This document shows, in pieces, positions 3,226-35,933 of a DNA stretch of 40,742 nucleotides. This stretch comes from Gammaproteobacteria bacterium (GTDB taxonomy: Bacteria > Pseudomonadota > Gammaproteobacteria > GCA-002705445 > GCA-002716945): positions 1 through 40,742 of the forward strand of contig PBFS01000026.1 of the NCBI GenBank assembly GCA_002718845.1. Direction: 5' to 3'. A program made the translations under genes and the position numbers. Within the stretch, counting starts at the first letter, position 1. The number at the start of each line of letters is the position of its first letter. Under the pieces are notes generated by a model, which had not been told where the DNA came from, ran no database searches, and worked only from the letters and a program-made list of their open reading frames with translations.

Positions 3226-4674
3226 TTACGTAGACAGTAGTTTAGGCTTATTATTTTTCATCTCAGAGTGAGAGCCAATGGTGATCAAATCCCAAATAAG
3301 AATAATTAATCCAAGCGCCATTATCCAACCAAAAGTCATTCTCCAATCCATTGCTAACAGAAAGCTAGGGTCAGATTGTGCTTTAAAATAACCACTCCAT
3401 GTAGAGCCTTCAACCGCCCGTTCAATAAATGCTTGTTTATAGCCGGCGATTAGCATAGCAATAGTCATTCCGACAACACCAATATTTAGTAGGGCTAATG
3501 ATGTTTTCCATTTCCAGCCATTATCAATCAAACTTGAACCCATGTGAATATTTCCTCTCCAGACTTGGATTGCCATATAAAACATTGCAATATTGATTGT
3601 TGCATAAGCGCCAAAAAAAGCTAAATGACCATGAGATGCTGTCCACTGTGTTCCATGTGTGTAGAGATTAATTTGAGGTAAGGTTTGGAAAAAACCCCAT
3701 ACTCCAGCACCAAAAAAATTACCGAAGGCATGCGCAATCAACCATGCAAGCGCGGGATTATTGGTTGATTTAAAATTTTTAACACCTGAATCATAAAGAG
3801 CATGAACCAACATAGCCACTAAAGGAATTGGTTCAAGAGCAGAAAAGAAACCGCCAATAGTCAACCAATATTCTGGTGTGCCAATCCAAAAATAGTGATG
3901 TCCTAAACCTAAAATACCTGATCCAAGCATTAGGGTTACCTCAATATATAACCAAGTAGTTACAATACGCCGATCGGCATTAATTGTTTTCATTAAAACC
4001 CAGGCCATAATACAACCAACAAGGACTTCCCAAGTTGCCTCAACCCAAAGATGTACGACCCACCACCACCAGAACTGATCCATTGAAATATTATCACTAT
4101 AAAACATTCCAGCAAGATAGACGCCTGCAAGTGCAGCTAAATCTAAAACAAGGACGCCAGCTATCCCACTCCATTTGCCTTTAATAAAAGTAGCGTATAT
4201 GTTATAGAAAAAAATTAACATTACAAAAACGATTCCAATATCAGCCCATCTAGGAGCCTCAATGTATTCTCTTCCCTCATTAATTAGCCAAATTGAAGCA
4301 TAACTACCTTCCCCGCTTTGAATAAATAAGAACACAAGAACCACAACCAATACAGCAATAGTTAAGACCCAAAAACCAAAATTTGCCAGTTTTTTACCGA
4401 CCAATTCTGTTTTAGCCTCGTCTTCAATCAACCAATAAACTGACCCAATAAAACCGTATAATAACCAAATAATCATGGCATTTATGTGCACCATACGATT
4501 CACATTAAAATCTATAATTTGGTAGAGAAATTCAGGATTGTTAAATTGTGTACCTGCTAATATACCAAAAACAATCTGAACCACAAATAATACAACAGCC
4601 ATAGAAAAATATTTTATTGCGATTTTTTGACCAGAATTCAAATGTATCGTATTAAGAGTGTGCATGTTAATCAT
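3226..4674 (-). CDS. norB: Nitric oxide reductase large subunit (cNOR catalytic subunit)
   Basis: Integral membrane subunit that reduces 2 NO to N2O at a haem b3-FeB centre, taking electrons from NorC. 482 residues with about 12 membrane segments. The diagnostic residues are all present: H63 (MVHINA) and H350 for low-spin haem b, H208, H259 and H260 for FeB, E212 and E216 (HLWVEATWE) near FeB, E281 (ALEPIP), and H348 (SHGH) on haem b3. These glutamates separate it from cbb3 oxidase CcoN. Its ATG overlaps the norC stop (ATGA), so translation is probably coupled. The gene ends 26 bp from the convergent tRNA. Confidence 0.97.
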   Translation of the reverse strand: MINMHTLNTIHLNSGQKIAIKYFSMAVVLFVVQIVFGILAGTQFNNPEFLYQIIDFNVNRMVHINAMIIWLLYGFIGSVYWLIEDEAKTELVGKKLANFGFWVLTIAVLVVVLVFLFIQSGEGSYASIWLINEGREYIEAPRWADIGIVFVMLIFFYNIYATFIKGKWSGIAGVLVLDLAALAGVYLAGMFYSDNISMDQFWWWWVVHLWVEATWEVLVGCIMAWVLMKTINADRRIVTTWLYIEVTLMLGSGILGLGHHYFWIGTPEYWLTIGGFFSALEPIPLVAMLVHALYDSGVKNFKSTNNPALAWLIAHAFGNFFGAGVWGFFQTLPQINLYTHGTQWTASHGHLAFFGAYATINIAMFYMAIQVWRGNIHMGSSLIDNGWKWKTSLALLNIGVVGMTIAMLIAGYKQAFIERAVEGSTWSGYFKAQSDPSFLLAMDWRMTFGWIMALGLIILIWDLITIGSHSEMKNNKPKLLST

Positions 4675-5270
4675 TGTTTTATTGTCTTAAAATTAGTGGG
4701 AAAGCCATTGGTATCAATTGATGACATCCATTTCAAATATGCGATGATTGATTTGGCTTCAGCTTCCGTGAGTCCTAGATTTGGCATTTTTCTATTCGTT
4801 CCAAACGTCCTTGCATTATTCTCGGGGTCCATCAGGAAATTTAGCATCAATGTCTCTCTGACTGATTTTGCACCCCAGCCTGGATCTAACCAAGCTTTAG
4901 TTAAATCTGGAGCGTAGTAAGCACCGTTGCCTAGCAACGTATGACAATTCATACAGTTTTTAGCCTGAATCGTTAACTTGCCAAGGTTTATGAGACCTTC
5001 TGCTTCCTCTGCAGTTAGCATATTTCCGAATAGAGGAGACTCAGAACCAATTACCGGTTCAAACATATTTCTCGTTTTATTGTATTTATAGTCAATCTGA
5101 TTATTGATGACTGTATATGCAGGAACTCTTTTGGAACCAGCTGTTATTTTATTGACCGTATCAAAAGTTAGAAGTACTAGAACTAAAGTCATCAACCCAG
5201 TTACAAATATAGCTGATTTCTTCCAAAAATTTTCTGAGGCCCACCAAATAATTTCGTCTTTTTTTATCAC
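4671..5270 (-). CDS. norC: Nitric oxide reductase cytochrome c subunit
   Basis: Membrane-anchored cytochrome c that receives electrons from soluble donors and passes them to NorB. 199 residues with an N-terminal membrane anchor at about 18-36, a haem-binding CMNCH at 106-110 and likely axial Met163 in RKMPNLG. It is longer than the ~146-residue Pseudomonas protein; the extra length lies between the anchor and the haem domain. The start codon is GTG and overlaps the stop of the preceding membrane protein gene (GTGA). The Ccm genes 1.5 kb away would attach its haem. Confidence 0.95.
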   Translation of the reverse strand: MIKKDEIIWWASENFWKKSAIFVTGLMTLVLVLLTFDTVNKITAGSKRVPAYTVINNQIDYKYNKTRNMFEPVIGSESPLFGNMLTAEEAEGLINLGKLTIQAKNCMNCHTLLGNGAYYAPDLTKAWLDPGWGAKSVRETLMLNFLMDPENNARTFGTNRKMPNLGLTEAEAKSIIAYLKWMSSIDTNGFPTNFKTIKQ

Positions 5271-11137: not shown

Positions 11138-11143
11138 ATGAAA

Positions 11144-11545
11144 ATGGATGATATTACAGAACAATCAGTTCAAAGCGAAGCTAAATCTAATAGCTCAAAT
11201 GATATAACATTGCCAGATGGAACTGTTGTTGGCTCTTGGGATGGTGCTGATATATTGGATTTGCAGAAGGAAATTCAAAGAATTCAGGCGCAACAAAAAG
11301 CTGACGGAGATCCAAGAAGTAATTATGTAACAAAATTTGGAGTACCTCATCAAGAGCAAACCCCTTCTCACTTGAGAGATTTTATTGCTTATATTATCTG
11401 GGGCGTTGATCGCAAAGGTAGTTGTTTAGTTGCTTCAAGAGCAAATAGAATTGAAACCGTTGATTATATAAATGAATGGTGTGGAAATTCAATCGCTCAA
11501 GATGCTGGCAATAGAGCACGAGACCCGAATTCAGGGTGTAAATAG
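11144..11545 (+). CDS. FNR-controlled conserved-looking protein of unknown function
   Basis: I do not recognise this 133-residue protein. It has no signal peptide or clear membrane span. The N-terminus is acidic and polar, followed by LPDGTVVGSWDGADILDLQKEIQRIQ, a Gly/Pro-containing middle and a C-terminal half with FIAYIIWGVDRKGSCLVASRANR and three cysteines (GSC, EWC, SGC). It diverges from fnr across two FNR boxes and has an ideal Shine-Dalgarno. Its codons are less A/T-extreme than those of neighbours such as ccmI, so strong anaerobic expression seems likely. A role in low-oxygen or nitrogen-oxide metabolism is inference from position. Confidence 0.85.
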   Translation: MDDITEQSVQSEAKSNSSNDITLPDGTVVGSWDGADILDLQKEIQRIQAQQKADGDPRSNYVTKFGVPHQEQTPSHLRDFIAYIIWGVDRKGSCLVASRANRIETVDYINEWCGNSIAQDAGNRARDPNSGCK

Positions 11546-12981: not shown

Positions 12982-13569
12982 CTATTGTTGTATCGCCTCA
13001 AACTCAATTATTAACTCTATTTTATCTCCAACAAATTTCTTATCAACCCCATAATTCATACCAAAATCTGATCTTTTAAAACTCGTATTGGCAGAAACTC
13101 CCATCACAATTGGCTTAAATAAACCAACACGAAATGGATATTGAGCAATTTTATTTATTTTTGCATTTAATACCAGCGGTCTTGTTATCCCTATTAAGGT
13201 TAATTCGCCAGTAATTTTTCCTGGTTTATTATTTAAGTTGTTTGTTTTAGATTTAAAAACCATATTTGGGTATTGATCTGTATTTAAAAAATCCGGACTG
13301 CGTAAATGAGAGTCTCTTCCTTCATGATTAGTGAAAACACTATTAGTTTTTACATTTATGTTTATGTCTTTCACAATATTTGTTTCTTCATCATATGTAA
13401 ATGAACCTTCAATTTCTCTAAATATACCCAAAGTCTTTGCATAACCAGCATGTTCTACCAAGAAACCTAAGCTAAAGTGCGTATCATCAATTATATATTC
13501 TTTATCATCAGCCTGGATATTGCCTGAAATTAATAAAACTGCCAGTATTAAAAGATTACGAATTATCAT
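12982..13569 (-). CDS. YceI-family periplasmic lipocalin-like protein
   Basis: 195 residues with a cleavable signal peptide (about 1-20) followed by a YceI beta-barrel. Typical elements are IDDTHFSLGFLVEHAGYAKTLGIFREIEGSFTYD near the N-terminus, the SPDFLNTDQYPNMVFKS stretch and GELTLIGITRPLVL. YceI proteins bind isoprenoid-like amphiphiles such as polyisoprenoids or ubiquinone. Its start overlaps the end of the CDP-alcohol phosphatidyltransferase gene by 14 bases, and the O-methyltransferase lies 6 bp downstream, so all are read together on the minus strand. Confidence 0.92.
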   Translation of the reverse strand: MIIRNLLILAVLLISGNIQADDKEYIIDDTHFSLGFLVEHAGYAKTLGIFREIEGSFTYDEETNIVKDININVKTNSVFTNHEGRDSHLRSPDFLNTDQYPNMVFKSKTNNLNNKPGKITGELTLIGITRPLVLNAKINKIAQYPFRVGLFKPIVMGVSANTSFKRSDFGMNYGVDKKFVGDKIELIIEFEAIQQ

Positions 13570-14281
13570 GTTTGTTACTCCTATATAACCAAATTATATC
13601 TTTTGTAAAAGAAAATGTAATTATTAAAAAAGCTAATATGCTAATAATTTGGACATATATCATAGATAAACATTGTAAATGACAAATGATTAGTAATAGC
13701 GCCGTCATAGAACAGATTGTCTTTCTTAAGTAGCTTTCTGGCAAGGTATTTTTTAGCCATGTAAAATATAATCCTAGAAATACAAAAATATACCTATACG
13801 ATGGTATTATAAAAATTGCAATTGTAGTATTGTAATTTAAGTATAATGACAGTGCTAAAATTAGTAATAAAAATGTATCTGTTTCTTGATCAAATATTTC
13901 GCCAAATTTTGTTGATTCTTTTAGATATCTTGCAACGAAGCCATCAAACCAATCTAACAAAAGCGCTATAAAGGAAATAATTAAGAATAAATTATTCTCA
14001 TAAAAAATACTAAAAAATTCTTTAGATAAATATGAATTTATAGTAATAGAAAATAATATTATAATTAAAATTATTCTAAAATACGTTATATAAGATGCAT
14101 AAGTAAATTTATTTGTTTTAAATATATTAAAAATATAAAAAATAATCGATGAAATAATAATAAAAAATAATGTATTATATAGTAATATGCTATATGTTAA
14201 ATATTCTTGATATAACACAAGAAATAAGAACAATAGATAGCAATATGCTTGAAATATAATTTTATATAAAGATTTATTCAT
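13556..14281 (-). CDS. CDP-alcohol phosphatidyltransferase family membrane protein
   Basis: Membrane enzyme type that swaps CMP on a CDP-linked lipid or alcohol for another alcohol. 241 residues, about six hydrophobic helices, and the complete catalytic signature D110-x2-DG-x2-AR-x8-G-x3-D131-x3-D135. Which alcohol it uses cannot be read from the sequence. The N-terminal ~60 residues are two extra hydrophobic helices. It starts 30 bp from, and divergent to, the dehydrogenase of the next operon, so it probably belongs to the 13.5-19.3 kb cassette. The base composition is visibly more AT-rich than that of most neighbours. Confidence 0.88.
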   Translation of the reverse strand: MNKSLYKIIFQAYCYLLFLFLVLYQEYLTYSILLYNTLFFIIISSIIFYIFNIFKTNKFTYASYITYFRIILIIILFSITINSYLSKEFFSIFYENNLFLIISFIALLLDWFDGFVARYLKESTKFGEIFDQETDTFLLLILALSLYLNYNTTIAIFIIPSYRYIFVFLGLYFTWLKNTLPESYLRKTICSMTALLLIICHLQCLSMIYVQIISILAFLIITFSFTKDIIWLYRSNKHDNS

Positions 14282-14285
14282 TTAA

Positions 14286-14291
14286 TATAAT
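14286..14291 (+). promoter_or_regulatory. TATAAT box in a 30-bp divergent spacer
   Basis: The only space between the divergent phosphatidyltransferase and dehydrogenase genes is 14282-14311. It holds a perfect TATAAT for the rightward operon and a TTAATATTAA palindrome at 14293-14302. No -35 stands out, and no Shine-Dalgarno precedes the ATG at 14312. Confidence 0.35.
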
Positions 14292-14311
14292 CTTAATATT
14301 AAATAACGATC

Positions 14312-15295
14312 ATGAAAACCTTTGAAACAGAATCCTTTTGGATAAATAAGAAAAATAATAGTTGCATAAAAAAACATATAATTGATGCACCAGGAAAAAG
14401 TGAAGCTCTTATAAAAACAATTTATAGTGGGATTAGCTATGGTACGGAGAAAATTGTTTATACTGGAGACGTGCCTAAAAGTCAGAGGGAGTTAATGAGA
14501 TGTCCTTACCAAATGGGAGATTTTGGCTCAGATGTAAAATATGGTTATATAAATGTAGGCAAGGTTGTCAAAGGATCACCAAAGTATAATAACAAATATG
14601 TATATACATTATTTCCGCATCAAACAGTTTACGTCTTGAATGAAGCCGATTTAATATTAATACCTAAATCTATCCCACTACAAAGGTGTTTGTTAACCGC
14701 AAATATGGAAACAGCTATTAATGGTATGTGGGACACGCTACCTTCGTGTGGCGATAAAGTTCTAATCATTGGTGCTGGAATTGTAGGGTTTTTAATGGCA
14801 TATGTTTTAAAATCAATAATAGGTATTGAAGTTTTGCTTATAGATATAGAAAAAAGTAAGAAGCAATTAGCAGAAAAATTTAATTTTAATTTTAAAACCT
14901 CTATCCCTAAGGACTATCAAGCAAATATAATATATGAATGCTCAGGAAATTCTAGCATAATTAATACTCTTAGCAGTCACATAAAAGATGAAGCAACAAT
15001 ATGCGTTTTAAGTTGGTATGGTAACAGTATTTCTAAAATTAATTTTGGTAAAGAATTCTTATCCAAAAGGGTAAAATTTATTTTTTCACAAGTTTCGAAG
15101 GTATCTCATAATAGAAGCAAATACTGGAACAACTATTCTAGACGAGAATTAGCAATAAAACTATTAAATGACAATAAATTAGACTATCTTATAGAAAAAG
15201 ATTATATTAATTTTTATGACTTACCAAAATTCTTTTCAGGAATTGATAAGCATAAAAAATTTTATTGCAAAGTAGTAAACTATAAGAAAAGCTAA
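14312..15295 (+). CDS. MDR-superfamily dehydrogenase, apparently lacking catalytic-zinc Cys
   Basis: 327 residues related to zinc-type alcohol dehydrogenases. A GroES-like N-terminal domain (about 1-130) holds SGISYGTEK where catalytic-zinc ADHs have a GICGSD-type motif, so the usual Cys ligand is Ser or Tyr here. The Rossmann domain carries GAGIVG at 154-159 with an acidic residue after the second strand (LLIDIEKSK), pointing to NAD(H). No four-Cys structural-zinc lobe is seen. It resembles the divergent MDR proteins related to BchC more than true alcohol dehydrogenases. Its TAA overlaps the next gene's ATG (TAATG), so it is translationally coupled to the PTPS homologue. Substrate unknown. 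Confidence 0.82.
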   Translation: MKTFETESFWINKKNNSCIKKHIIDAPGKSEALIKTIYSGISYGTEKIVYTGDVPKSQRELMRCPYQMGDFGSDVKYGYINVGKVVKGSPKYNNKYVYTLFPHQTVYVLNEADLILIPKSIPLQRCLLTANMETAINGMWDTLPSCGDKVLIIGAGIVGFLMAYVLKSIIGIEVLLIDIEKSKKQLAEKFNFNFKTSIPKDYQANIIYECSGNSSIINTLSSHIKDEATICVLSWYGNSISKINFGKEFLSKRVKFIFSQVSKVSHNRSKYWNNYSRRELAIKLLNDNKLDYLIEKDYINFYDLPKFFSGIDKHKKFYCKVVNYKKS

Positions 15296-15690
15296 TGTTT
15301 GAAGTAAAAGTAACAAAAAATATGTTTATTGCGCACAGTCTTAATGATGATTTATTTGGACCTGCAAAAAATTTACATGGAGCAACTTATATAATTGATT
15401 TAATTGTAGCAAGCAACCATTTAACCCAGCAAAATATTGTAATTGATATTGATTTAGCATCTAAATTATTGGAAGAATGTATTTCACAATATAATTATAA
15501 GAACCTAGATGATATTCCAGAGTTTCAAAATGTACTTACCACTACTGAGTTTATGGCTAAAAAACTTACAGAAGATTTTATAAATAAATTAAAAGAAATA
15601 GATTTTAATACTAAGAACTTATATTCAATTAAGATGATTTTAAATGAATCACATATTGCATCTGCATCGTATTTAACCTTGCTTAATTAA
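15295..15690 (+). CDS. Divergent 6-pyruvoyl-tetrahydropterin synthase/QueD homologue with altered active site
   Basis: 131 residues with the T-fold layout of PTPS/QueD. Compared with canonical members, His14 (FIAHSL) and His28 (NLHGATY) are kept. The third zinc His is Ala30, the catalytic Cys position is Ala24, and the LDH catalytic His is Tyr68 (QYNYKNLDDIPEF). Glu118 (LNES) is kept. The same window encodes a canonical QueD with all these residues, so this paralogue probably does something else: a different reaction, binding a pterin-like ligand, or a scaffold role. It is coupled by TAATG junctions to genes on both sides. Confidence 0.8.
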   Translation: MFEVKVTKNMFIAHSLNDDLFGPAKNLHGATYIIDLIVASNHLTQQNIVIDIDLASKLLEECISQYNYKNLDDIPEFQNVLTTTEFMAKKLTEDFINKLKEIDFNTKNLYSIKMILNESHIASASYLTLLN

Positions 15691-16688
15691 TGAAAAAGTT
15701 TTATTTCATTATTCCTCATTTTGGAAATACAAAAACAGGGGGAACTTTGTATGATTTGCATATTTCTATTTATCTGAGAAATAAATTTATTTGTCCAATA
15801 AAAAAAATGGTTAGTCATCAAATATCTATCATCAAATTAGCTAGATTGATTAATACAATACCAAAAGGATCAACTATTTTATTGGATGGTTTTATTGCAA
15901 ATAAAATTAAACACTACATTAATCTTAAAAATAAAGTTAATCTCTTGATACATTTACCTTGCTCTTTAGAACATTCAACAAATAAATTCTCTAATATGAA
16001 AAAATATTTTGATGAAAGAAGGTCATTTAATAGAGCAAACGGTATTATAACTGTAAGTAATTATATGAAAAAAGAAATATCAAAATATTTAAATAAACAT
16101 AAAAAAATATTTGTAGCAAAACCAGGAATTGATGAAAAATTTTTTATACATACAAAAAATAATACTAATAATAATTTGCTTTCAATCGGAAATGTTATAC
16201 CAAGAAAAGGTTATATTTCTTTAATCAAAGCGTTAAGAGAAGTAGATAGCAATTGGCATTTAAACATTATAGGGAGCACTGAGATAGATGAAGAATATTT
16301 TTCTGAATTAAAAATATTAATTAGAAAATCAAAGCTAGAAAACAAAATATCTTTTTTAGGTACCTTGTCAAGTGAAGAAATAGTGAAATATATTAAGGTA
16401 TCACGTATTTTTGTTTTACCTACTATTTATGAAAGTTTTGGAATGTCTATATTAGAATGCTCAATAGCAGGTCTGAAAATTATTACAACAGATTTACCAG
16501 TTTTGCGTGAAGTTTTAAAAGGAAAGCATGCTACATTTGTTAAAAAAAATGAAATTAGTTCTTTGTCAGATGCCATTAAAACTAACCTAAATTATGACAA
16601 AAATATTTATGAAAATACCTGTAATAAATCAAAGTATAACTGGTCAGTTCCAGCTAGAATTATTAAAAAGGCAATAAATGAATTTTAA
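15690..16688 (+). CDS. Glycosyltransferase family 4 (GT-B fold)
   Basis: 332-residue retaining GT-B glycosyltransferase. The N-terminal acceptor domain begins with KKFYFIIPHFGNTKTGGTLYD. The C-terminal donor domain has SIGNVIPRKGY (165-175), a FLGTLSSEEI turn and the E-x7-E motif E248...E256 in YESFGMSILE, typical of GT4. Sugar donor and acceptor are unknown. It shares TAATG with the PTPS homologue upstream and overlaps the methyltransferase by 11 bases. In this context the acceptor may be the pterin- or pyrimidine-type product of the cassette, which is inference. Confidence 0.88.
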   Translation: MKKFYFIIPHFGNTKTGGTLYDLHISIYLRNKFICPIKKMVSHQISIIKLARLINTIPKGSTILLDGFIANKIKHYINLKNKVNLLIHLPCSLEHSTNKFSNMKKYFDERRSFNRANGIITVSNYMKKEISKYLNKHKKIFVAKPGIDEKFFIHTKNNTNNNLLSIGNVIPRKGYISLIKALREVDSNWHLNIIGSTEIDEEYFSELKILIRKSKLENKISFLGTLSSEEIVKYIKVSRIFVLPTIYESFGMSILECSIAGLKIITTDLPVLREVLKGKHATFVKKNEISSLSDAIKTNLNYDKNIYENTCNKSKYNWSVPARIIKKAINEF

Positions 16689-17550
16689 TAAATTTCAGCT
16701 TACATGGATAAATGCTAGAGAAAAATATGACTTTTTAGCACGAAGTAATCTCCTTTGTAAGCATTATAAAAATAATAAGAAAAATTTTGCTAAAATTATT
16801 GACTTAGGGTGCGGTACAGGATCTTTCCTAAGGTGGTGTTATCATAACAAAATAGCTTTTGATGAAATGCTATTAGTAGATCATGATAAAAAACTTCTTA
16901 GTAATTTTCCCATAATAACTAAAAAATTTTTGAAGGAATATAATTATAAAATTATAAAGAATACTGAAACCAGATTCGAAATTTTAAAAAAAAATATCTC
17001 CAAAAAAGATAAGATAACGTTAAAGAGACAAGACATCTCAATGGTATTGCCAATCATTAATAAATATAATTTAATAAGCTTTTCGGCAATTACTGATATA
17101 TTGTCTAAGACATTTATTAAGAACTTATTTTCATCTGTAGCATCAAAGAAGGTTATATACTTTTCAATCTGTTTTAATGGGAAAATTAAATGGAATATAA
17201 TTAATGAACACGACAAGTATATTGTTTCGCAATTCAATAAACATCAAGAATCCTTCAAAAATGATATTTACACTATGGGATCTAAAAGTATAAAATTTAT
17301 AAAAAATATATCTAAAATAAAAAACTTTAACTCATCCAATAAAGACTCTTCATGGGTTATTCCATCTAAAAAAGATATTGATCGAATGTTTCAAAAACAA
17401 TATTTAAAAACTATTTATAATGCTTTAAAAAAGGATAAAGAAACTAATTATGATATTTTATATAATTGGTATAAATTTAGAATGAAAAAGATTGATTTAC
17501 ACAAATCTGATTTGGTTGTTGGCCATGAAGACATACTTGTTTTAACATAA
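16678..17550 (+). CDS. Class I SAM-dependent methyltransferase of unknown substrate
   Basis: 290 residues. SAM motif I is clear (IIDLGCGTGSFLRW, about 40-53), an acidic loop follows in LLVDHDKKLL, and a second motif resembles ISFSAITDIL. The C-terminal ~120 residues, with SSWVIPSKKDIDRMF, do not match a family I know by name. The ATG lies 11 bases inside the end of the glycosyltransferase gene, and the stop overlaps the next start (TAATG). The tight coupling suggests it methylates the same molecule the glycosyltransferase acts on. Confidence 0.8.
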   Translation: MNFNKFQLTWINAREKYDFLARSNLLCKHYKNNKKNFAKIIDLGCGTGSFLRWCYHNKIAFDEMLLVDHDKKLLSNFPIITKKFLKEYNYKIIKNTETRFEILKKNISKKDKITLKRQDISMVLPIINKYNLISFSAITDILSKTFIKNLFSSVASKKVIYFSICFNGKIKWNIINEHDKYIVSQFNKHQESFKNDIYTMGSKSIKFIKNISKIKNFNSSNKDSSWVIPSKKDIDRMFQKQYLKTIYNALKKDKETNYDILYNWYKFRMKKIDLHKSDLVVGHEDILVLT

Positions 17551-18443
17551 TGAGAATCAAGGACACTATAAGATATATAATTTCTATTATTTTAATTTAT
17601 ATAATATTTGATAATTATGGTTATAAGATTCTACAGATTATAAATATAATAGATTATAAATATATTATATTAATTATAGGGATTAGTTTTGGGCAACATT
17701 TGTTATCTGCATACAGATGGATGTATGTCTCTAAATTTACAAACTTAAATATTAATTTTAAAAATTCCTTAAAATATTATTATATTGCAGGCTTTATGAA
17801 TAATATCCTTCCAGGAGGCATTCCTGGTGATTTATATAGAATTTATTGTACTTCAGATAATAAAAAGGAAATATTCAAAATGGGAAAATCATTTCAATCA
17901 GTGATTTTTGAAAGGTTATCTGGACAAATAATGCTTTTTTTTGTTTTTATTGCTTCGCTTACAATTTATTTTTTAACTAATCAGAAATATATAGCTTTTT
18001 TATATTTAATTTTGCCTACAGCATTAATATTTTTTTTAATAAAATATTTAATTAAATATAACATCAAAAAATATTTTGGAACAAAGGATATAACAAAAAA
18101 TTTCCATATGCTATTTACAGGACCAATTTTTTGGAATCATATTATACTGTCATTTTTTGTAGTAGCCTCATATATATTAATTTATATTATTTCAGCTATA
18201 TCTCTTGGTTTGGAGATTGACTATCTAGCATTTTTAGTATTTACACCTATTATTCTTTTTTCTATGACATTGCCGGTGAGTATTGGGGGATGGGGCGTAA
18301 GAGAGGTTACAGCATTGTTAGTTTCATTCCTTATTGGATTATCTGCATCTGCAAGCATAAGTGTTTCAATAATTTATGGAATATTAAACTTAATTTGTTC
18401 TTTGCCAGGTTTATTTCTATTTTTAAATTTAAGAAATAGATAA
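17550..18443 (+). CDS. UPF0104 / lysylphosphatidylglycerol synthetase TM-region family protein
   Basis: 297-residue membrane protein with about seven or eight spans and family landmarks NNILPGGIPGDLYR (about 92-105), FERLSGQ (about 121-127) and LPVSIGGWGVRE (about 244-255). It corresponds to the flippase-like membrane half of MprF without any aminoacyl-transferase domain. Members are thought to move lipids or lipid-linked molecules. As the last gene of the rightward operon it could export or flip the cassette's product. Its end overlaps the convergent RibD-like gene by 15 bases. Confidence 0.87.
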   Translation: MRIKDTIRYIISIILIYIIFDNYGYKILQIINIIDYKYIILIIGISFGQHLLSAYRWMYVSKFTNLNINFKNSLKYYYIAGFMNNILPGGIPGDLYRIYCTSDNKKEIFKMGKSFQSVIFERLSGQIMLFFVFIASLTIYFLTNQKYIAFLYLILPTALIFFLIKYLIKYNIKKYFGTKDITKNFHMLFTGPIFWNHIILSFFVVASYILIYIISAISLGLEIDYLAFLVFTPIILFSMTLPVSIGGWGVREVTALLVSFLIGLSASASISVSIIYGILNLICSLPGLFLFLNLRNR

Positions 18444-19319
18444 ATCTATATCACATAAAATATCTTCTCCCATTTTAAAATATTTTATTTTATTATCTTT
18501 GATATTTTTTAAAGATTTTATTTTTGGTAATATAAAGCTACTATGTCCTTGACCAATAATAATGGGACTTATGCATAAATGCATTTTATTCAATAATTTA
18601 TTATTATAAAAATTAGATACAGTTGAACCACCACCTTCTATATATATAATTTTTTTATTAAGTTTTTTAAGTAAAGATATAATATCATTTAGATCAAATT
18701 TATTTTTGTATAGAGGGAGAATAAAAACATTATTACTATAATTTTTTATTTTATCTGAAATTATCTTGTATCCATTACCATCTCTATTTGAAAAAACATT
18801 ATAATTATTTTTTAAAACATTTCCTTTATCAAGTATTAAACGCATTGGGCTTAACCCTTTTACCAATCTGGTAGTTAGCATTGGATTATCTAACTTTACT
18901 GTATTAGTCCCTACAATAATTACATCCGATATTGCCCTTAGCATATGTATATGCTCCAGATTATTAGGTGAGCTTATATATTTTGATTCACCTGATTTAG
19001 TGGCTATATAACCATCTAATGTTTGAGCAATATGAGCTATTAAATACGGATTATTTTTTCCATTAAATATTATTGGCATATACAAATCGAATAGATTTTG
19101 TAATTCTGCATCTAAATTAAAATTTTTTCTTATTATTTTGTTTTTTTCTAGACTATAGGAATATTTATAAAGATTATTATTAATTAATTTAGATATAGAA
19201 ATTGATTTAGTCAAAATATTAGCATCACTAATTACTTGTTTGGCCTCTAAAATTAGTGACCAAGCACATTTCTTTGTTATACTATGTTTATTGAATATAT
19301 TTTTTTTACGATATGTCAT
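18429..19319 (-). CDS. RibD C-terminal/dihydrofolate-reductase-fold reductase with N-terminal extension
   Basis: 296 residues. Residues ~90-296 form a RibD_C domain: HIAQTLDGYIATKSGESKYISS (96-117), LRAISDVIIVGTNTVKLDNPMLT (127-149) and the nucleotide-binding YIEGGGSTVSNFY. In riboflavin synthesis this domain reduces a ribosylamino-pyrimidine phosphate with NADPH. There is no deaminase domain; instead there is an unrecognised ~85-residue N-terminal part with CAWSLILEAKQ. This is therefore not the housekeeping RibD. The position opposite the pterin-like operon suggests a cassette reductase. Its start codon overlaps that of the divergent ORF (ATGTCAT). Confidence 0.85.
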   Translation of the reverse strand: MTYRKKNIFNKHSITKKCAWSLILEAKQVISDANILTKSISISKLINNNLYKYSYSLEKNKIIRKNFNLDAELQNLFDLYMPIIFNGKNNPYLIAHIAQTLDGYIATKSGESKYISSPNNLEHIHMLRAISDVIIVGTNTVKLDNPMLTTRLVKGLSPMRLILDKGNVLKNNYNVFSNRDGNGYKIISDKIKNYSNNVFILPLYKNKFDLNDIISLLKKLNKKIIYIEGGGSTVSNFYNNKLLNKMHLCISPIIIGQGHSSFILPKIKSLKNIKDNKIKYFKMGEDILCDIDLSIS

Positions 19320-20194: not shown

Positions 20195-20854
20195 TTATAT
20201 TGATTCAAAATCACCTAACTTCATAAGCCTTTCCCTAAACTTCTCTTTTATTTCCTCGGATAAATATTTCAAATTTAACGCTTCTTTCATTTTTCCTTTA
20301 TTTGTTAAGTCTTTAAATAATAGCTCTGATATTTTAAATACAGACAAGCTATTTGGTTCTTGTTTAATAATTTCAACAGTGTCGTTTACAGATATTTTTC
20401 CTGTCTTAACTACTCTTAAGTAAATCCCTAGTAAACAGCTTTGGGAGAACATTTTTGGGAATTCACGATTATTCATTTTAATCCCTAATTTATAACAAGG
20501 AATTCTTGGTTGCGATACTTGAAAAACACAATTTCCTATTCTAATTTCATCCCCAATATTTATTTTTTTTTCATCAAAATTATCTATCGTTAAATTTTCT
20601 CCTACCAACCCAAAATTTTTAAAATTAACACCTAAATCTTCAGACCATTTTTTATAATGTTTAAATGAATATCCATACAATGCTTTATCATAACCACCAT
20701 GTACCTTTAAATCAGCTTGTCTATCACCATTAATTCCATGCTCAGAAATTTCTGCTGATTCTTCTACAGGCATTTTATATATACTTGTGGTAAGCTCTTT
20801 TCCATTGAATACAATTTTTTTTGGTTCTGAAATATTTATCGACAAAACTTTCAT
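20195..20854 (-). CDS. MOSC-domain protein (YiiM-like)
   Basis: 219 residues of the MOSC superfamily, molybdenum-cofactor-binding proteins related to the C-terminal domain of Moco sulfurase. YiiM-type members reduce N-hydroxylated compounds such as 6-hydroxylaminopurine. Visible: NGDRQADLKVHGGYDKALYGYS (42-63), GLVGENLTI and the conserved Cys120 in SQPRIPCYKLG, the likely molybdenum ligand. The C-terminal tail (about 170-219) corresponds to the YiiM 3-alpha extension. The moa/moeB genes for its cofactor lie 1-4 kb downstream. It heads the MOSC-zinc finger-hisI operon. Confidence 0.9.
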   Translation of the reverse strand: MKVLSINISEPKKIVFNGKELTTSIYKMPVEESAEISEHGINGDRQADLKVHGGYDKALYGYSFKHYKKWSEDLGVNFKNFGLVGENLTIDNFDEKKINIGDEIRIGNCVFQVSQPRIPCYKLGIKMNNREFPKMFSQSCLLGIYLRVVKTGKISVNDTVEIIKQEPNSLSVFKISELLFKDLTNKGKMKEALNLKYLSEEIKEKFRERLMKLGDFESI

Positions 20855-20912
20855 ATGTTTTTCAGGACTCTGTATTTTACTTAATTTCTCTTAGATGAAA
20901 GGATAACTTAAG

Positions 20913-21803
20913 ATGAACTCATATACAATAAACTGGATATTATTATTAACTCTATCTGCTATTTGGGGAGGGGCATTTACCTTAAATAAATTTGCTTTAG
21001 AGGCTTATACGCCACAATTAGTAGTATCAGGAAGATTGATAATTGGAGCTATTGTTTTGATAATTTTAGTTTTTTTAATACATAAAAAAGTTTTATTATA
21101 TTTTAAACATTGGCCTTATTATTTATATATGAGCCTTGTCGGAATAGTTGCCCCTTTTTTGTTAATTGCTTATGGGCAAAAAGGAATTGATAGCTCTCTT
21201 GCAGGAATACTCATGTCAACAATGCCAATTTCTACATTAATTTTATCCCACTTCTTTTTAGATGATGAAAAATTAAATGTAAAAAAAATATTAGGTTTTA
21301 TTATAGCTTTTTTTGGAATTATAGTTTTAGTTATGCCAGATTCTAAATTTATTACTAATTCATTTTTTCATGATATTAAATCTGAGCTTATGGTAATTGG
21401 TGGAGCAATATTATATTCTTGTGCCGCTGTTTTCGGTAAGAAATATAAAATAACTGATCCCTTGAATGCTTCAATGGGTACTATTTTATTTTCTGCTATT
21501 ATTATGTTAGCTTATCTTTTTTCATCAGAGTCTAACGTTTCAATTAATTTTTATGAAATACATTTTTCTTCATTGTTATTACTTGGTATTTTTTGTACCG
21601 CAATAGCAACAATTATATATTTTCATATTTTACAAACATCAGGAGCTTCTTTTATTTCGATTATGAATTACCTTATTCCCGTATGGGCTATAATTTTCGG
21701 AGTTTTATTTTATAATGAGAAAATTATTTGGAATTATCTTATTGGCCTTTTCATTATAGTTTTAGGAATACATATTTCTCAAATAAAAAATAAGACAATA
21801 TAG
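20913..21803 (+). CDS. EamA/DMT-family transporter
   Basis: 296 residues with ten predicted membrane helices in two five-helix EamA repeats. The first repeat opens with LSAIWGGAFTLNKFALEAYTPQLVVSGRLIIGA, and the second includes IATIIYFHILQTSGASFISIMNYLIPVWAIIFG. Members export amino acids, nucleobases or other metabolites; the substrate cannot be predicted. AAAGGA lies about 10 bases before the ATG. It diverges from the MOSC gene with 58 bp between the starts. Confidence 0.9.
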   Translation: MNSYTINWILLLTLSAIWGGAFTLNKFALEAYTPQLVVSGRLIIGAIVLIILVFLIHKKVLLYFKHWPYYLYMSLVGIVAPFLLIAYGQKGIDSSLAGILMSTMPISTLILSHFFLDDEKLNVKKILGFIIAFFGIIVLVMPDSKFITNSFFHDIKSELMVIGGAILYSCAAVFGKKYKITDPLNASMGTILFSAIIMLAYLFSSESNVSINFYEIHFSSLLLLGIFCTAIATIIYFHILQTSGASFISIMNYLIPVWAIIFGVLFYNEKIIWNYLIGLFIIVLGIHISQIKNKTI

Positions 21804-21896
21804 TTATTTCTTCTTATTCAATAAAATTAATCATGTTATATAAATTTTATATACATGTTATATTTAATATTATTATACAAGTTAGAGGTAATAAAA

Positions 21897-22199
21897 ATGT
21901 CAGAAAATAGCGATAGTAAAGCAAAAATTGAGTCAGCAACCTTCCAAAGGATAGTTTCACATCTAAGAGATAATCCGGAAGTGCAAAATATTGATTTAAT
22001 GAATTTAGCAAATTTCTGTCGTAATTGTATATCAAAGTGGTATGTGGAAGAGGCAAAAAAAGAAGGTTTGTCATTAGATTATAATCAAGCTAGAGAGATT
22101 ATTTATGGCATGCCATACAATGAGTATAAGGTTAAATATCAAAAAGAAGCAACCGAAGAGCAATTAAAAAAATTTAATGAAAACAAAGATAAAAAATAA
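21897..22199 (+). CDS. DUF1244-family protein
   Basis: 100 residues, nearly all a DUF1244 domain: FQRIVSHLRDNPEVQNIDLMNLANFCRNCISKWYVEEA, then the REIIYGMPYNEYKVKYQKEA block. The family is common in proteobacteria, is small and alpha-helical, and has no established function. The frame is open up to 21855, but the ATG at 21897 has AGAGGT about 9 bases upstream and begins right before the conserved region, so it is the likely start. The moeB ATG lies 23 bases inside its end, coupling it to molybdopterin synthesis genes. Confidence 0.92.
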   Translation: MSENSDSKAKIESATFQRIVSHLRDNPEVQNIDLMNLANFCRNCISKWYVEEAKKEGLSLDYNQAREIIYGMPYNEYKVKYQKEATEEQLKKFNENKDKK

Positions 22200-22950
22200 T
22201 CTTAAATCTTTAACTAATCAAGAAATAGAGAGATACAATAGACACATATTGCTTGAGGAGATAGATATACATGGGCAATCTGAACTTTTAGAGAAACATG
22301 TTTGTTTAATTGGACTTGGTGGGTTAGGTTGTCCAATTGCATATTATCTAACATCATCAGGTATTGGCGAGTTAACTATAATTGATTATGACCGAATAGA
22401 TACAACTAATCTGCAACGACAAATTTTATTTAATTCTTTAGATGTTAATAAAAAAAAGGTAGAAGTTGCATTTGAAAAACTAACTCAATTAAACCCAACT
22501 ATAAAAATTAATAAAGTAGATAAACAGATTAACAGCCATATAAATAATGTAATTTTTAAAAATTGCGATTTAATTATCGATGCAACGGATAATTTTAAAA
22601 CAAGAACTATAATTAATAAGATTTCTATTGATAATAAGAAACCCTTAATCATGGGGTCAGCAGCTAAAATGGAAGGACAAGTAGCCGTATTTAGAAATGA
22701 TTTACCTAACATGCCTTGTTATAATTGTTTATACAATGATTTGGACGATGAAAATAAATCATGTTTAGACCAGGGGGTATTGTCAAGTCTCACTGGTATA
22801 ATTGGATCAATTCAAGCAACTGAATCTATAAAACTACTCCTAAATTTTGGAGAAACTTTGGAAAGTAAATTATTACTCATCGATGTTAAGTATTCTAATT
22901 ATAGAATTGTAAATTTAAAACAAGATAAAAAATGTAAGGTATGCTCATAA
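22177..22950 (+). CDS. moeB: Molybdopterin-synthase adenylyltransferase MoeB (ThiF/HesA family)
   Basis: E1-like enzyme that adenylates the C-terminal Gly-Gly of MoaD so that sulfur can be added. 257 residues (E. coli 249). The ATP-binding GLGGLG is at 46-51, NLQRQ at 78-82 and DATDNFKTR at 135-143. Zinc is held by C181/C184 and C253/C256, and Cys196 lies in the flexible crossover region. ThiF can look the same, but moaA, moaD and moaE downstream support MoeB; it may also serve ThiS. It overlaps moaA by 10 bases. Confidence 0.93.
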   Translation: MKTKIKNNLKSLTNQEIERYNRHILLEEIDIHGQSELLEKHVCLIGLGGLGCPIAYYLTSSGIGELTIIDYDRIDTTNLQRQILFNSLDVNKKKVEVAFEKLTQLNPTIKINKVDKQINSHINNVIFKNCDLIIDATDNFKTRTIINKISIDNKKPLIMGSAAKMEGQVAVFRNDLPNMPCYNCLYNDLDDENKSCLDQGVLSSLTGIIGSIQATESIKLLLNFGETLESKLLLIDVKYSNYRIVNLKQDKKCKVCS

Positions 22951-23960
22951 ATAATATAACTGATAAATATAATAGACCATTTAATTATTTAAGAATTTCT
23001 GTTACTGATAGATGCAATTTTAGATGTGCTTATTGTATGCCAAAAGAAATTTTTGATAGTGGTTATAAATTTCTAAAAAAACATGATTTATTATCATTCG
23101 AAGAAATAGTTAGAGTAGTTAAGGGGTTGGAATCATTTGGTCTTAATAAAATAAGACTAACTGGAGGAGAACCCTTGTTAAGAAAAAATATAGAAAAACT
23201 AATTCACAAAATAAAAACAAAAACTAATATTAAACATCTTGCCTTGACGACAAATGGTTCTTTGCTAACTCAGAAAAAAGCTAAATTATTACGAGAAGTT
23301 GGTTTAGATGAAATTACAATTAGTCTTGATTCTCTTAATCCATATATAAATAAGAAACTAAACCCATTAAATGATGATAAAAATGTAATTGATGCTATTT
23401 ATACTACCTTAGATGTTTTTAATTTTGTAAAAATAAATATTGTAGTAATGAAAAATATAAATGACTCTGAAATATTTAAGATTATCCATAACTTTAAAGA
23501 CACTAATTCTGAACTAAGATTTATTGAATTTATGGATGTTGGTGAAACTAATAGATGGGATGTAGATAAAGTTATAACATCTGAAGACCTAATAAAGAAA
23601 ATTAAGAAAACATTTAACATAAAAAAAAGCCATCCTGTATTGGGTGCTACGTCTCAAAAATGGAAACTATTAGATTACAAAGCTTCTGTAGCATTTATAT
23701 CATCAATCTCTAAACCCTTTTGTAATACATGTAATAGAGGCAGATTATCTGCAGACGGTAAATTTTATACGTGTTTATTTTCTACGCATGGGAATGATTT
23801 ATTACAAGTTATAAGAAACTCTCCTAAGGATGATGTTTTGGAAAATTTGTTTTCTAGTATCTGGAGTACTAGACTAGATAAATATTCGTTGATTAGAAAT
23901 TTGAATAAAAATATAAAAATTAAAATTCCTAAAATAGAAATGTCATATATAGGTGGTTAA
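22941..23960 (+). CDS. moaA: GTP 3',8-cyclase MoaA
   Basis: Radical-SAM enzyme that starts molybdopterin synthesis by cyclising GTP to 3',8-cH2GTP. 339 residues. The N-terminal [4Fe-4S] motif is C25-x3-C29-x2-C32 (TDRCNFRCAYCMP). The C-terminal cluster cysteines lie in FCNTCNRGRLSADGKFYTCL, and the protein ends in the essential Gly-Gly. Its start overlaps the moeB end by 10 bases. MoaC, which completes cPMP formation, is not in this window. Confidence 0.97.
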   Translation: MLINNITDKYNRPFNYLRISVTDRCNFRCAYCMPKEIFDSGYKFLKKHDLLSFEEIVRVVKGLESFGLNKIRLTGGEPLLRKNIEKLIHKIKTKTNIKHLALTTNGSLLTQKKAKLLREVGLDEITISLDSLNPYINKKLNPLNDDKNVIDAIYTTLDVFNFVKINIVVMKNINDSEIFKIIHNFKDTNSELRFIEFMDVGETNRWDVDKVITSEDLIKKIKKTFNIKKSHPVLGATSQKWKLLDYKASVAFISSISKPFCNTCNRGRLSADGKFYTCLFSTHGNDLLQVIRNSPKDDVLENLFSSIWSTRLDKYSLIRNLNKNIKIKIPKIEMSYIGG

Positions 23961-24003
23961 TTTTCTGAATTGTAAACTTTACATATAAGTTATATTATGA
24001 ACT

Positions 24004-24273
24004 ATGATTTATTCAGTAATGAGCTATCTATTTTATTTCATTGCTTTGATTGCAGGTTATACTGCTGCATATGAAATTTTATTACAAATGTTCCCAGATT
24101 ATGGCCTTATTCATATCATTGTAGGCGGAACTATAAGCCTCATGTTTTTCCCACTTATTCCTTTATATCCTGGCATTATGAGTGGTAAATGGACATTAGC
24201 AATATTATGTTATATAGCGATTTTTTTTGGGGTGATTTTTGGAAATCAGGCTAGACGGTCAAAAAACAACTAA
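24004..24273 (+). CDS. Small hydrophobic membrane protein between moaA and moaD
   Basis: 89 residues with about three hydrophobic helices (roughly 6-24, 33-53 and 62-80) and a short basic end (GNQARRSKNN). Not recognised. A second Met at codon 6 could be the start; no clear Shine-Dalgarno distinguishes them. It lies 43 bp after moaA and 92 bp before moaD, which has its own promoter, so it may be the last gene of the DUF1244-moeB-moaA transcript. A role in molybdate or cofactor metabolism would be guesswork. Confidence 0.65.
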   Translation: MIYSVMSYLFYFIALIAGYTAAYEILLQMFPDYGLIHIIVGGTISLMFFPLIPLYPGIMSGKWTLAILCYIAIFFGVIFGNQARRSKNN

Positions 24274-24322
24274 ATTTATAATTTCTAGAGTTTACCTTAT
24301 ATATTTAACCTAATTAATTATG

Positions 24323-24351
24323 TTGATAATAACTCTATTTGTCTCTATGAT
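24323..24351 (+). promoter_or_regulatory. Sigma-70-type promoter for moaD-moaE-argG
   Basis: TTGATA (24323-24328), a 17-base spacer and TATGAT (24346-24351). Transcription should begin about 8 bases before the moaD ATG, which has no Shine-Dalgarno, so the transcript would have almost no leader. Confidence 0.65.
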
Positions 24352-24365
24352 ACATTTGCGTTGTC

Positions 24366-24599
24366 ATGAAAATTTACGTTAAATATTTCGCAAGCATAAG
24401 AGATATCATGGGCACAGAATGCGCTAATCTTGATATTGAAGAAAGTATATCCGTAGATGAATTATGGCAAGGATTAATAGTTGGCAAAGAGACTCCGCAA
24501 AAGGTTTTAGTTGCTGTAAACTATGAATACGTAAACATGAATTATAAATTAAAAGAGGGAGATGAAGTTGCTTTTTTCCCTCCTGTTACAGGTGGTTAA
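24366..24599 (+). CDS. moaD: Molybdopterin synthase sulfur-carrier subunit MoaD
   Basis: Ubiquitin-fold sulfur carrier whose C-terminal thiocarboxylate supplies the dithiolene sulfurs of molybdopterin. 77 residues, ending in FFPPVTGG; the terminal Gly-Gly is adenylated by MoeB. The beta-grasp core (MKIYVKYFASIRDIMG... ) is typical. Its partner moaE starts 2 bases after the stop. The ThiS family is similar in fold, but the moaE neighbour settles the assignment. Confidence 0.95.
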   Translation: MKIYVKYFASIRDIMGTECANLDIEESISVDELWQGLIVGKETPQKVLVAVNYEYVNMNYKLKEGDEVAFFPPVTGG

Positions 24600-24601
24600 C
24601 G

Positions 24602-25060
24602 ATGAAAATAGAGATATTAGATGAAAAATTTGATCCTTGGCAAGCTATTGTCGAGTATAAGAGAAACCAATTACAAAATAATTCAAAAATTGGAGCTTCT
24701 TCAGTTTTCCTAGGAACTATGAGGGACTTTAATGATGATGAAGAAGTTGAAAGTATGGAATTAGAACATTATGAAGGAATGACAGAGAAGTACCTATCAA
24801 ATATTGTTGATGCAGCAATAAAGAAACACAAGATTATAGATGGTCTGGTTATTCATAGAATTGGAGTTTTAAAACCTACTGACCCAATAGTTGTAGTTGC
24901 AACTTGGTCAGAGCATAGAGATAATGCATTTAATGCAACTAGAGAAATTATGGAATCTTTAAAATCAGACGCCCCTTTTTGGAAAAAAGAAAACACTAAT
25001 AAAGGTTTCAAATGGGTAAAACCTTCTAACGAACTTACAGAAAATACGAATGAAACCTAA
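24602..25060 (+). CDS. moaE: Molybdopterin synthase catalytic subunit MoaE
   Basis: Forms the heterotetrameric molybdopterin synthase with MoaD and converts cPMP to molybdopterin. 152 residues. Family features: [14 protein letters not shown] (about 33-46), [12 protein letters not shown] (about 54-65), the [25 protein letters not shown] block and the Lys-bearing [15 protein letters not shown] near the end, which includes the catalytic lysines. The gene overlaps argG by 11 bases, an unexpected coupling of cofactor and arginine synthesis. Confidence 0.96.
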
Positions 25061-34723: not shown

Positions 34724-35545
34724 TTATTCTTTTATCTGATGAATTTGTGCATATGCTGAATGATTATGTATCGATTCAAAATTTTCTGATTCTACAATAT
34801 ATTCAGAAATACGATCATCATTATTGAAATGTGATGAGATATCTCGAACCATATCTTCTACAAACTTTGGATTATCGTATGCTTTTTCTGTAACAAATTT
34901 TTCATCAGGTCTTTTAAGCAAAGCATACAATTCTGAAGACGCTTCTTTTTCAACTATATCAATAATTTCTTCTATCCAAATAAATTCTTTTACTGTAACA
35001 GTGACAGTTACATGTGATCTTTGATTATGAGCACCATAATCAGAAATCTTTTTTGAACATGGGCATAAACTAGTTACTGGTATTGTTACTTTCACTTTTA
35101 AATTAGCTTCATTTTTTCTAATTTCCCCTATTAATGAAACATTATAATCTAGAAGACTTTGCACTTTAGAAACTGGAGCCGTTTTTTTTATAAAATAAGG
35201 AAATGACATTTCAACATGTCCAGATTCTGCTTCTAAAAGAATAAGCATTTCTCCAATCATTTTCTTAAAAATTTCTACTGTTATATAATCTTCATGACTA
35301 TTAAGTATATGGACAAATCTAGACATATGAGTACCTTTTAAGTTGTGAGGAAGGTTTACATACATATTAAAATTAGCCACTGTTGTTTGTTTTTTTCCAC
35401 ACCTTTGTTTAATAATCATAGGGTGCAATATATCTTTTATACCTACTTTGTTAATTGGAAGATTTCTAGTATCAGTTAACCCTTGTGTATCCGGTAATAC
35501 ATTATTTTTTTCAGTTTCATCAATAATTTTTTTGTTAGTAGCCAT
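34724..35545 (-). CDS. folE2: GTP cyclohydrolase FolE2 (type IB)
   Basis: Converts GTP to 7,8-dihydroneopterin triphosphate, the entry to folate and to queuosine via QueD. 273 residues of the FolE2/COG1469 family, which can use metals other than zinc. The catalytic Cys lies in [21 protein letters not shown], and Glu and His ligands follow in [33 protein letters not shown]. It lies 6 bp downstream of queD, whose substrate it makes, in a dxs-queD-folE2 run. Confidence 0.95.
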
Positions 35546-35551
35546 TGTAAT

Positions 35552-35920
35552 TTATTCTGAATACGTCACTGCAGACCTATCATTCTCCCATAATTTTATT
35601 GATTTTATTGCAACATCTTTTTTAACTAGTATTTTTGAAAGCTCACAATACAAATATTTTGCTATATTTTCAGCAGTAGGATTAATTTTTTTAAACGGCT
35701 GTAAATCATTTAAAAACTGATGATCCAGTTCATTTACTATATTGTTAGTTAATTCTTTTATTTCTTTAAAATCTATAATCATACCAATATTATCAAGTTT
35801 ATTTCCGCAAACTTCAACTTCAACTTTCCAATTATGTCCATGCATTTGCTTACAAGGACCCTTATGGCCATTCAAAATATGCGCTGATGAGAACTCTACA
35901 AAAGTTGTTAAAGTATAAAT
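35552..35920 (-). CDS. queD: 6-carboxy-tetrahydropterin synthase QueD with apparent ATT start
   Basis: Converts dihydroneopterin triphosphate to 6-carboxytetrahydropterin for queuosine. 122 residues if translation starts at the ATT at 35918-35920. All catalytic residues are present: zinc His14, His27 and His29 (SSAH, MHGHNW), Cys23, the LDH triad (ELDHQFLND) and Glu in LWEN. The only standard start, TTG at 35873-35875, would remove FSSAH with a zinc ligand. Upstream of the ATT the frame closes at once with TAG. AGGAATAGGAA directly precedes the ATT, giving a good ribosome site. A sequencing error or a frameshift is the alternative. Confidence 0.88.
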   Translation of the reverse strand: MYTLTTFVEFSSAHILNGHKGPCKQMHGHNWKVEVEVCGNKLDNIGMIIDFKEIKELTNNIVNELDHQFLNDLQPFKKINPTAENIAKYLYCELSKILVKKDVAIKSIKLWENDRSAVTYSE

Positions 35921-35931
35921 TTCCTATTCCT
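35921..35931 (-). promoter_or_regulatory. Shine-Dalgarno supporting the ATT start of queD
   Basis: Read on the minus strand, AGGA-AT-AGGAA lies in the 13-base gap between the dxs stop and the queD ATT. The farther AGGA is 7 bases from the ATT, a normal spacing. Confidence 0.5.
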
Positions 35932-35933
35932 AG

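Follow-up and report, generated by a model that had tools for sequence, protein, structure and literature searches.

The DNA analysed here, referred to throughout as the window, is a single contig of 40,742 nucleotides (PBFS01000026.1) from the 0.97-Mb, 83% complete genome of a gammaproteobacterium (GCA_002718845.1), and it carries a compact cassette of genes that includes a protein with the PTPS fold. Five of these genes run on the forward strand: an MDR-type dehydrogenase that is BchC-like and devoid of zinc ligands (14312–15295; NCBIfam bchC, E 1e-14, below the cut-off), a PTPS-fold protein of the SCO6650 type (15295–15690; Pfam PTPS, E 8e-17), a GT4 glycosyltransferase (15690–16688; Pfam Glycos_transf_1, E 3.5e-28), a class I S-adenosylmethionine-dependent methyltransferase with a weak Pfam match and no curated family (16678–17550), and a flippase-like UPF0104/LPG_synthase_TM membrane protein (17550–18443; Pfam, E 1.5e-34). 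They are flanked by two genes on the reverse strand. A CDP-alcohol phosphatidyltransferase paralogue (13556–14281; Pfam CDP-OH_P_transf, E 1.5e-16) diverges from the MDR gene across a gap of 30 bp (14282–14311), and a RibD_C-type reductase without a deaminase domain (18429–19319; Pfam, E 1.5e-33, residues 91–279) converges on the UPF0104 gene and overlaps it by 15 bases. Direct reading confirms TAATG junctions at MDR/PTPS, PTPS/GT4 and methyltransferase/UPF0104, and an overlap of 11 bases between the GT4 and methyltransferase genes. The CDP-OH_P_transf, PTPS, GT4, LPG_synthase_TM and RibD_C matches are all well over the Pfam cut-offs, while those of the MDR protein and the methyltransferase are weak; in the NCBIfam profile search, none of the cassette proteins reaches an equivalog cut-off. 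The original prediction, a reading of the window from its letters and open reading frames, had described this arrangement as a seven-gene cassette, and all seven open reading frames, their junctions and the divergent gap stand as described. It left out one member. A gene for a YceI-family protein, predicted to be periplasmic and to bind lipids or isoprenoids (12982–13569, reverse strand; Pfam YceI, E 5e-37), shares 14 bases with the CDP-alcohol transferase gene. The same pair of neighbours is seen at other loci, which brings the unit here to eight genes.

The AT-richness noticed earlier is real: the GC content of 13556–19319 is 24.3% compared with 29.0% in the remaining window, and only about 1% of 5.76-kb segments have a GC content as low. 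The MDR gene alone has an ordinary GC content (29.1%). Is this the mark of a recent import? The AT content does not point to one, as the block is collinear in the nine other family members examined. At all nine of these loci an O-methyltransferase gene, the YceI gene, the seven cassette genes, HisI and a MOSC gene follow in the same order; a tenth locus examined, in genome G092 from another family, has PTPS–GT4–methyltransferase. The PTPS-like gene is present at E 1e-35 or better in 18 of 25 family genomes, the present one included, and several of the other seven genomes are incomplete. The cassette is thus vertical within its family. A scan of the locus for promoters and terminators gave no excess over shuffled sequences.

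How far does the cassette reach outside this family? When the PTPS alignment was used for a pattern scan of GTDB species genomes, at least 515 relatives were returned, and the best 80, which were kept, come from Alpha-, Beta- and Gammaproteobacteria, Acidobacteria, Gemmatimonadota, Myxococcota and Chloroflexi. Neighbours within 6.5 kb of the PTPS gene were counted at the 56 loci that have 6 kb or more of sequence on either side of it; these loci were picked by PTPS similarity and are therefore a non-random sample, the neighbours themselves lying outside the query. GT4 is found at 55 of the 56 loci, MDR at 54, the methyltransferase at 49, RibD_C at 45 and the CDP-alcohol transferase at 30, followed by LtaS/sulfatase-like (24), YceI (16), FkbM (11), creatininase-family (11), UPF0104 (7) and GTP cyclohydrolase II (7) genes. 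UPF0104, first taken for a fixed member, is therefore optional. Gene order is mostly kept across phyla at the loci compared. A locus from the Ectothiorhodospiraceae has cytochrome b561, YceI, all seven genes in the order of the window, GTP cyclohydrolase II and creatininase. A Microbacterium plasmid (Actinomycetota) carries exactly the seven genes of the window, and a Streptomyces fungicidicus plasmid encodes the CDP-alcohol transferase, MDR, PTPS, GT4, methyltransferase, creatininase and GTP cyclohydrolase II, together with a UPF0104 protein that had escaped annotation. Plasmid cassettes of Rhizobium and Agrobacterium add a sulfatase, UPF0104, GTP cyclohydrolase II and cytochrome b, and haloarchaeal plasmids of Haloarcula and Natronorubrum carry the CDP-alcohol transferase, MDR, PTPS, GT4 and a methyltransferase. 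Given these annotated plasmid copies in bacteria and haloarchaea, the gene set occurs in both domains and moves with replicons. The seven genes thus occur together far outside the lineage of the window; the similar sets that the original prediction mentioned for other proteobacteria do exist there, and also in other phyla and in archaea. Recurrence of the set in so many phyla argues against a chance neighbourhood.

Some of the loci surveyed have features of their own. One, filed as a Bifidobacterium breve metagenome-assembled genome, has a cassette typical of other phyla, and the bin is probably mislabelled or contaminated. Three Streptomyces plasmids (L179, L186 and L187) carry orphan copies of a Cys-less PTPS, with no cassette, beside a metallo-hydrolase and a cupin, and in two of them discoidin-domain genes also adjoin the orphan. 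About 12 Burkholderiales loci (L072:69-5318 and similar) have accessory genes of a molybdenum hydroxylase (cox-like) upstream of the cassette, which is possibly local synteny only.

The association of PTPS-like and RibD_C proteins can also be followed across whole genomes. Among 370 gammaproteobacterial genomes, a PTPS-like protein (E ≤1e-30) is found in 21 and a cassette-type RibD_C (E ≤1e-45) in 20, with both in 19 (Fisher p 1.3e-28, a value that overstates the association since related genomes are not independent). Outside the family of the window, 16 genomes have both, none has PTPS only and one has RibD_C only. In the two PTPS-only genomes, G004 and G007, a RibD_C of more divergent sequence stands in synteny. 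The two genes are on different contigs in five genomes; fragmented assembly may account for some of these cases, but in G754 they lie deep inside two large contigs. The linkage of PTPS and RibD_C thus goes beyond synteny. Overall, the cassette is present in about 6 to 8% of the sampled Gammaproteobacteria and Pseudomonadota genomes.

The PTPS-fold protein departs from its relatives in sequence. QueD and its relatives have a CxxxHGH signature, and the published signatures of PTPS-I, -II and -III all contain HGH preceded by Cys or Glu (PMC5041015). The window protein reads GPAKNLHGATY at this position, and in the alignment GPAxxLHGAT takes the place of CxxxHGH in the cassette proteins; all 15 bacterial rows have HGA and no Cys, and both the PTPS-II (CxxxxxHGH) and the PTPS-III (ExxHGH) motifs are absent. 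In the bacterial proteins the catalytic Cys and the third zinc His are thus both replaced by Ala, and the Asp-His pair is lost. What they share with QueD and PTPS-I, -II and -III (COG0720) is the T-fold, the ring-anchoring Glu (E118, invariant across 19 sequences) and the TxE motif. In a tree with long branches, 24 bacterial cassette sequences form a single branch outside QueD (support 100/98), the score against the QueD equivalog is 38.3 bits for a cut-off of 89.25, and a canonical QueD is encoded separately at 35555–35911. On these sequence grounds the cassette protein is not QueD, and PTPS chemistry on pterins, which the original prediction took from the family, cannot be assumed for a bacterial protein that has lost the catalytic residues. 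The nearest solved structure is SCO6650 from Streptomyces coelicolor (PDB 3d7j; profile E 6e-43, residues 1–127), which belongs to the same subfamily by profile and has the same GPAxxLHGATF/Y motif. A 2008 paper on SCO6650 reportedly described a structure without zinc and catalytic triad, no PTPS activity, and retention of the pterin-binding residues. SCO6650 is known as a single structure only, and to our knowledge a conserved cassette around a protein of this type has been undescribed so far.

The RibD_C reductase is also distinct from its namesake. Its best PDB profile matches are the diaminopyrimidine reductases 6p8c and 2azn (MjaRED), ranked above bifunctional RibD. Like these archaeal/fungal-type (DARPP) enzymes it has a standalone RibD_C fold, Pfam finding only this domain and no N-terminal deaminase, and the D, R and E residues conserved in the reductase fold are all present; unlike them it has an extra N-terminal region of about 85 residues, and riboflavin is made here by another RibD. 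Scores stay below the cut-offs for both the bifunctional RibD equivalog (106.6 vs 156.35 bits) and the archaeal-type profile TIGR01508 (86 vs 186 bits). In a tree with eight RibD sequences from the family the cassette protein forms its own clade, and a separate RibD (365 residues) lies together with RibA on one other contig of the genome. The PTPS-like and RibD_C-like proteins therefore both stand outside the ordinary QueD and RibD clades, and we are confident, in agreement with the original prediction, that the cassette serves neither queuosine nor riboflavin synthesis.

Which precursor would the cassette use? GTP cyclohydrolase II is encoded inside cassettes of Acidobacteria, Alpha-, Beta- and Gammaproteobacteria and Streptomyces. 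Together with the pattern of RibD_C matches, this favours a riboflavin-type precursor over the dihydroneopterin triphosphate made by FolE-type enzymes, and these same two observations lend partial support to the earlier idea of a dedicated pterin- or pyrimidine-type pathway. Only the two Streptomyces cassette copies of GTP cyclohydrolase II carry Met where the E. coli enzyme has Tyr105; SCO6655, with Met120, reportedly stops at the formylated intermediate. A restriction of creatininase to cassettes with a Met-type enzyme is unsupported, as creatininase also lies beside Tyr copies; the cassette creatininase scores best against MftE, below the cut-off, and weakly against ArfB. In the Rhizobium cassette, GTP cyclohydrolase II (L181:5717-6823) has a long N-terminal region resembling a degenerate RibB domain.

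The MDR proteins, unlike the zinc-dependent MDR alcohol dehydrogenases, have no Cys or GHE zinc motifs in an alignment of 14 members. The AlphaFold2 model of the methyltransferase has a pLDDT of 94; a Foldseek search with it found generic class I methyltransferases only, and a sequence search against the PDB found nothing informative. The motif DxxDGxxAR(x)nGxxxDxxxD is essentially invariant in 17 cassette CDP-alcohol transferases, and the model of the window protein (pLDDT 92) has PgsA (7drj) as its nearest solved fold. It keeps the catalytic motif of PgsA and the phosphatidylinositol-phosphate synthases; however, it exceeds PgsA by about 60 residues, has two additional helices at the N-terminus and scores 43.3 bits against the PgsA equivalog for a cut-off of 109.1. 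It is not the only such enzyme of the cell, as complete relatives have three, two of them in addition to the cassette one. The UPF0104 protein is over the cut-off in both Pfam (120 vs 33 bits) and TIGR00374 (54 vs 43 bits), and cytochrome b561-type genes are found in some cassettes. Judged by family membership, the UPF0104, YceI, LtaS-like and cytochrome b561 partners suggest a membrane or periplasmic fate for the product.

What could such a set of genes make? From the gene content, we put at about even the chance that the cassette is dedicated to the biosynthesis of an uncharacterised GTP-derived pyrimidine or pterin compound. The product is probably glycosylated, methylated and membrane-linked, the lipid link being uncertain. 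We infer the product, each reaction and the order of steps from knowledge of the families. The pathway would start, with moderate confidence, at the GTP cyclohydrolase II branch, where this enzyme, either the one that also feeds riboflavin synthesis or a copy of the cassette's own, would give ribosyl-diaminopyrimidine phosphate. The standalone RibD_C would reduce the ribosyl group, leaving a ribityl side chain. The PTPS-fold protein may bind the 2-amino-4-oxo ring via the kept Glu and carry out a different step, free of zinc/Cys chemistry, while the zinc-less MDR protein would adjust the side chain, the methyltransferase would methylate and GT4 would add a sugar. PgsA takes a phospho-alcohol as acceptor. 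As the RibD_C product would be a phospho-ribityl compound, phosphatidyl transfer onto it would be chemically natural, and the CDP-alcohol transferase may join the product, or its phospho-alditol part, to a phosphatidyl lipid (archaetidyl in archaea). UPF0104 may then flip it outwards, where YceI, cytochrome b561 or LtaS-like proteins, encoded in some of the cassettes, could act on it. In its boldest form this reading proposes a pyrimidine or pterin of a kind not seen before, glycosylated, methylated and anchored to a lipid. It might act as a redox or photoactive cofactor of the membrane, with YceI and cytochrome b561 at its service, and bacteria and haloarchaea would have it in common, with plasmids as vehicles; we offer this version tentatively, as a possibility well short of an even chance.

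Several observations weigh against this proposal. With the CDP-alcohol transferase and UPF0104 so often missing near PTPS, a lipid step may be dispensable or left to genes at other sites, and minimal versions of the cassette have no local GT4. GTP cyclohydrolase II, at so few of the 56 loci, is a mere hint of the precursor. The haloarchaeal PTPS proteins (L183:8001-8375 and L191:7001-7381) keep an HxH zinc motif (HSH), with Glu replacing Cys, so that by sequence the chemistry of this protein may differ between bacteria and haloarchaea. The G092 locus has FolE2 nearby instead of GTP cyclohydrolase II; this we discount because the FolE2–PTPS–dxs block is a unit of its own, which the window contains as well, in the form of FolE2, canonical QueD and dxs (34724–37817). 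In G092 this block directly adjoins the PTPS–GT4–methyltransferase core, with an ispA-like gene next to the block.

Could the product be soluble instead? Soluble glycosylated pterins exist, such as the cyanopterin of cyanobacteria and biopterin glucoside, and the cassette might make a methylated one, with the CDP-alcohol transferase, UPF0104 and YceI serving a neighbouring lipid function. The densest core is indeed MDR–PTPS–GT4–methyltransferase–RibD_C, the CDP-alcohol transferase and UPF0104 are within 6.5 kb at only 30 and 7 of the 56 loci, and the Palleronia and SC52 versions have no local CDP-alcohol transferase. However, this transferase is a repeated neighbour of the cassette in groups as far apart as Pseudomonadota, Actinomycetota and haloarchaea, which is hard to reconcile with a bystander, and we consider a soluble product doubtful. 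The opposite emphasis is a cassette for a glycolipid or envelope polymer, made by GT4, the CDP-alcohol transferase, the flippase, LtaS-like and YceI proteins, for which the PTPS-fold and RibD_C proteins would have been recruited into chemistry unrelated to pterins or pyrimidines. This would suit the LtaS/sulfatase-like and FkbM methyltransferase genes (24 and 11 loci) and a PTPS-like protein without catalytic residues; it is unlikely in view of the GTP cyclohydrolase II genes in cassettes of several lineages, the retained ring-anchoring Glu and TxE motif, and the D, R and E positions kept in RibD_C.

A start at GTP cyclohydrolase II with a RibD homologue and a methyltransferase is also how the toxoflavin pathway begins, and plasmid carriage would fit a secondary-metabolite cluster of this kind, whose product would be an exported antibiotic or signal. 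Strict synteny in a streamlined 1-Mb family, retention in unrelated lifestyles, and the lack of carrier, synthetase or resistance genes recurring among the neighbours make this very unlikely. Pterin glycosides with GT4-type glycosylation are otherwise familiar from cyanobacteria and green sulfur bacteria. No CDP-alcohol transferase, UPF0104 protein or PTPS lacking zinc is known from the pathways to these glycosides or from the toxoflavin pathway. Automatic annotation, which names 6-carboxytetrahydropterin synthase and a RibD family protein, would reduce the cassette to ordinary duplicates of queuosine, riboflavin and phospholipid genes, neighbours by chance. It is barely conceivable that this is so: normal QueD, RibD, RibA and CDP-alcohol transferase genes exist separately, the PTPS and RibD_C proteins form distinct clades, and the set is conserved across phyla.

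Elsewhere in the window, molybdenum cofactor genes (a MOSC protein, MoeB-like, MoaA and MoaE; 20195–25060) lie within 6 kb after the cassette. A COX1-type oxidase subunit (482 aa) and a cytochrome c (199 aa, with a weak NorB-type match) are encoded at 3226–5270, where GC content is locally higher; the two have no NCBIfam assignment. An open reading frame of 135 aa (11138–11545) between a Crp/Fnr regulator and a rhodanese gene has no Pfam or NCBIfam match, and an Hda homologue, indicative of Gammaproteobacteria, is also encoded.

The cassette is real and widely conserved, and it is undescribed as far as the searched literature goes, no paper on it having been found in the literature library. 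Annotation has treated its genes one by one, as enzymes of queuosine, riboflavin and phospholipid synthesis; seeing them as one system opens the way to what is likely a new metabolite derived from GTP, gives a context to the functionally unassigned SCO6650 structure, and would correct the widespread label of 6-carboxytetrahydropterin synthase on a zinc-less, Cys-less protein. Since the cassette is kept from streamlined gammaproteobacteria of 1 Mb to Streptomyces and haloarchaea, its product should be useful to the cells that make it.

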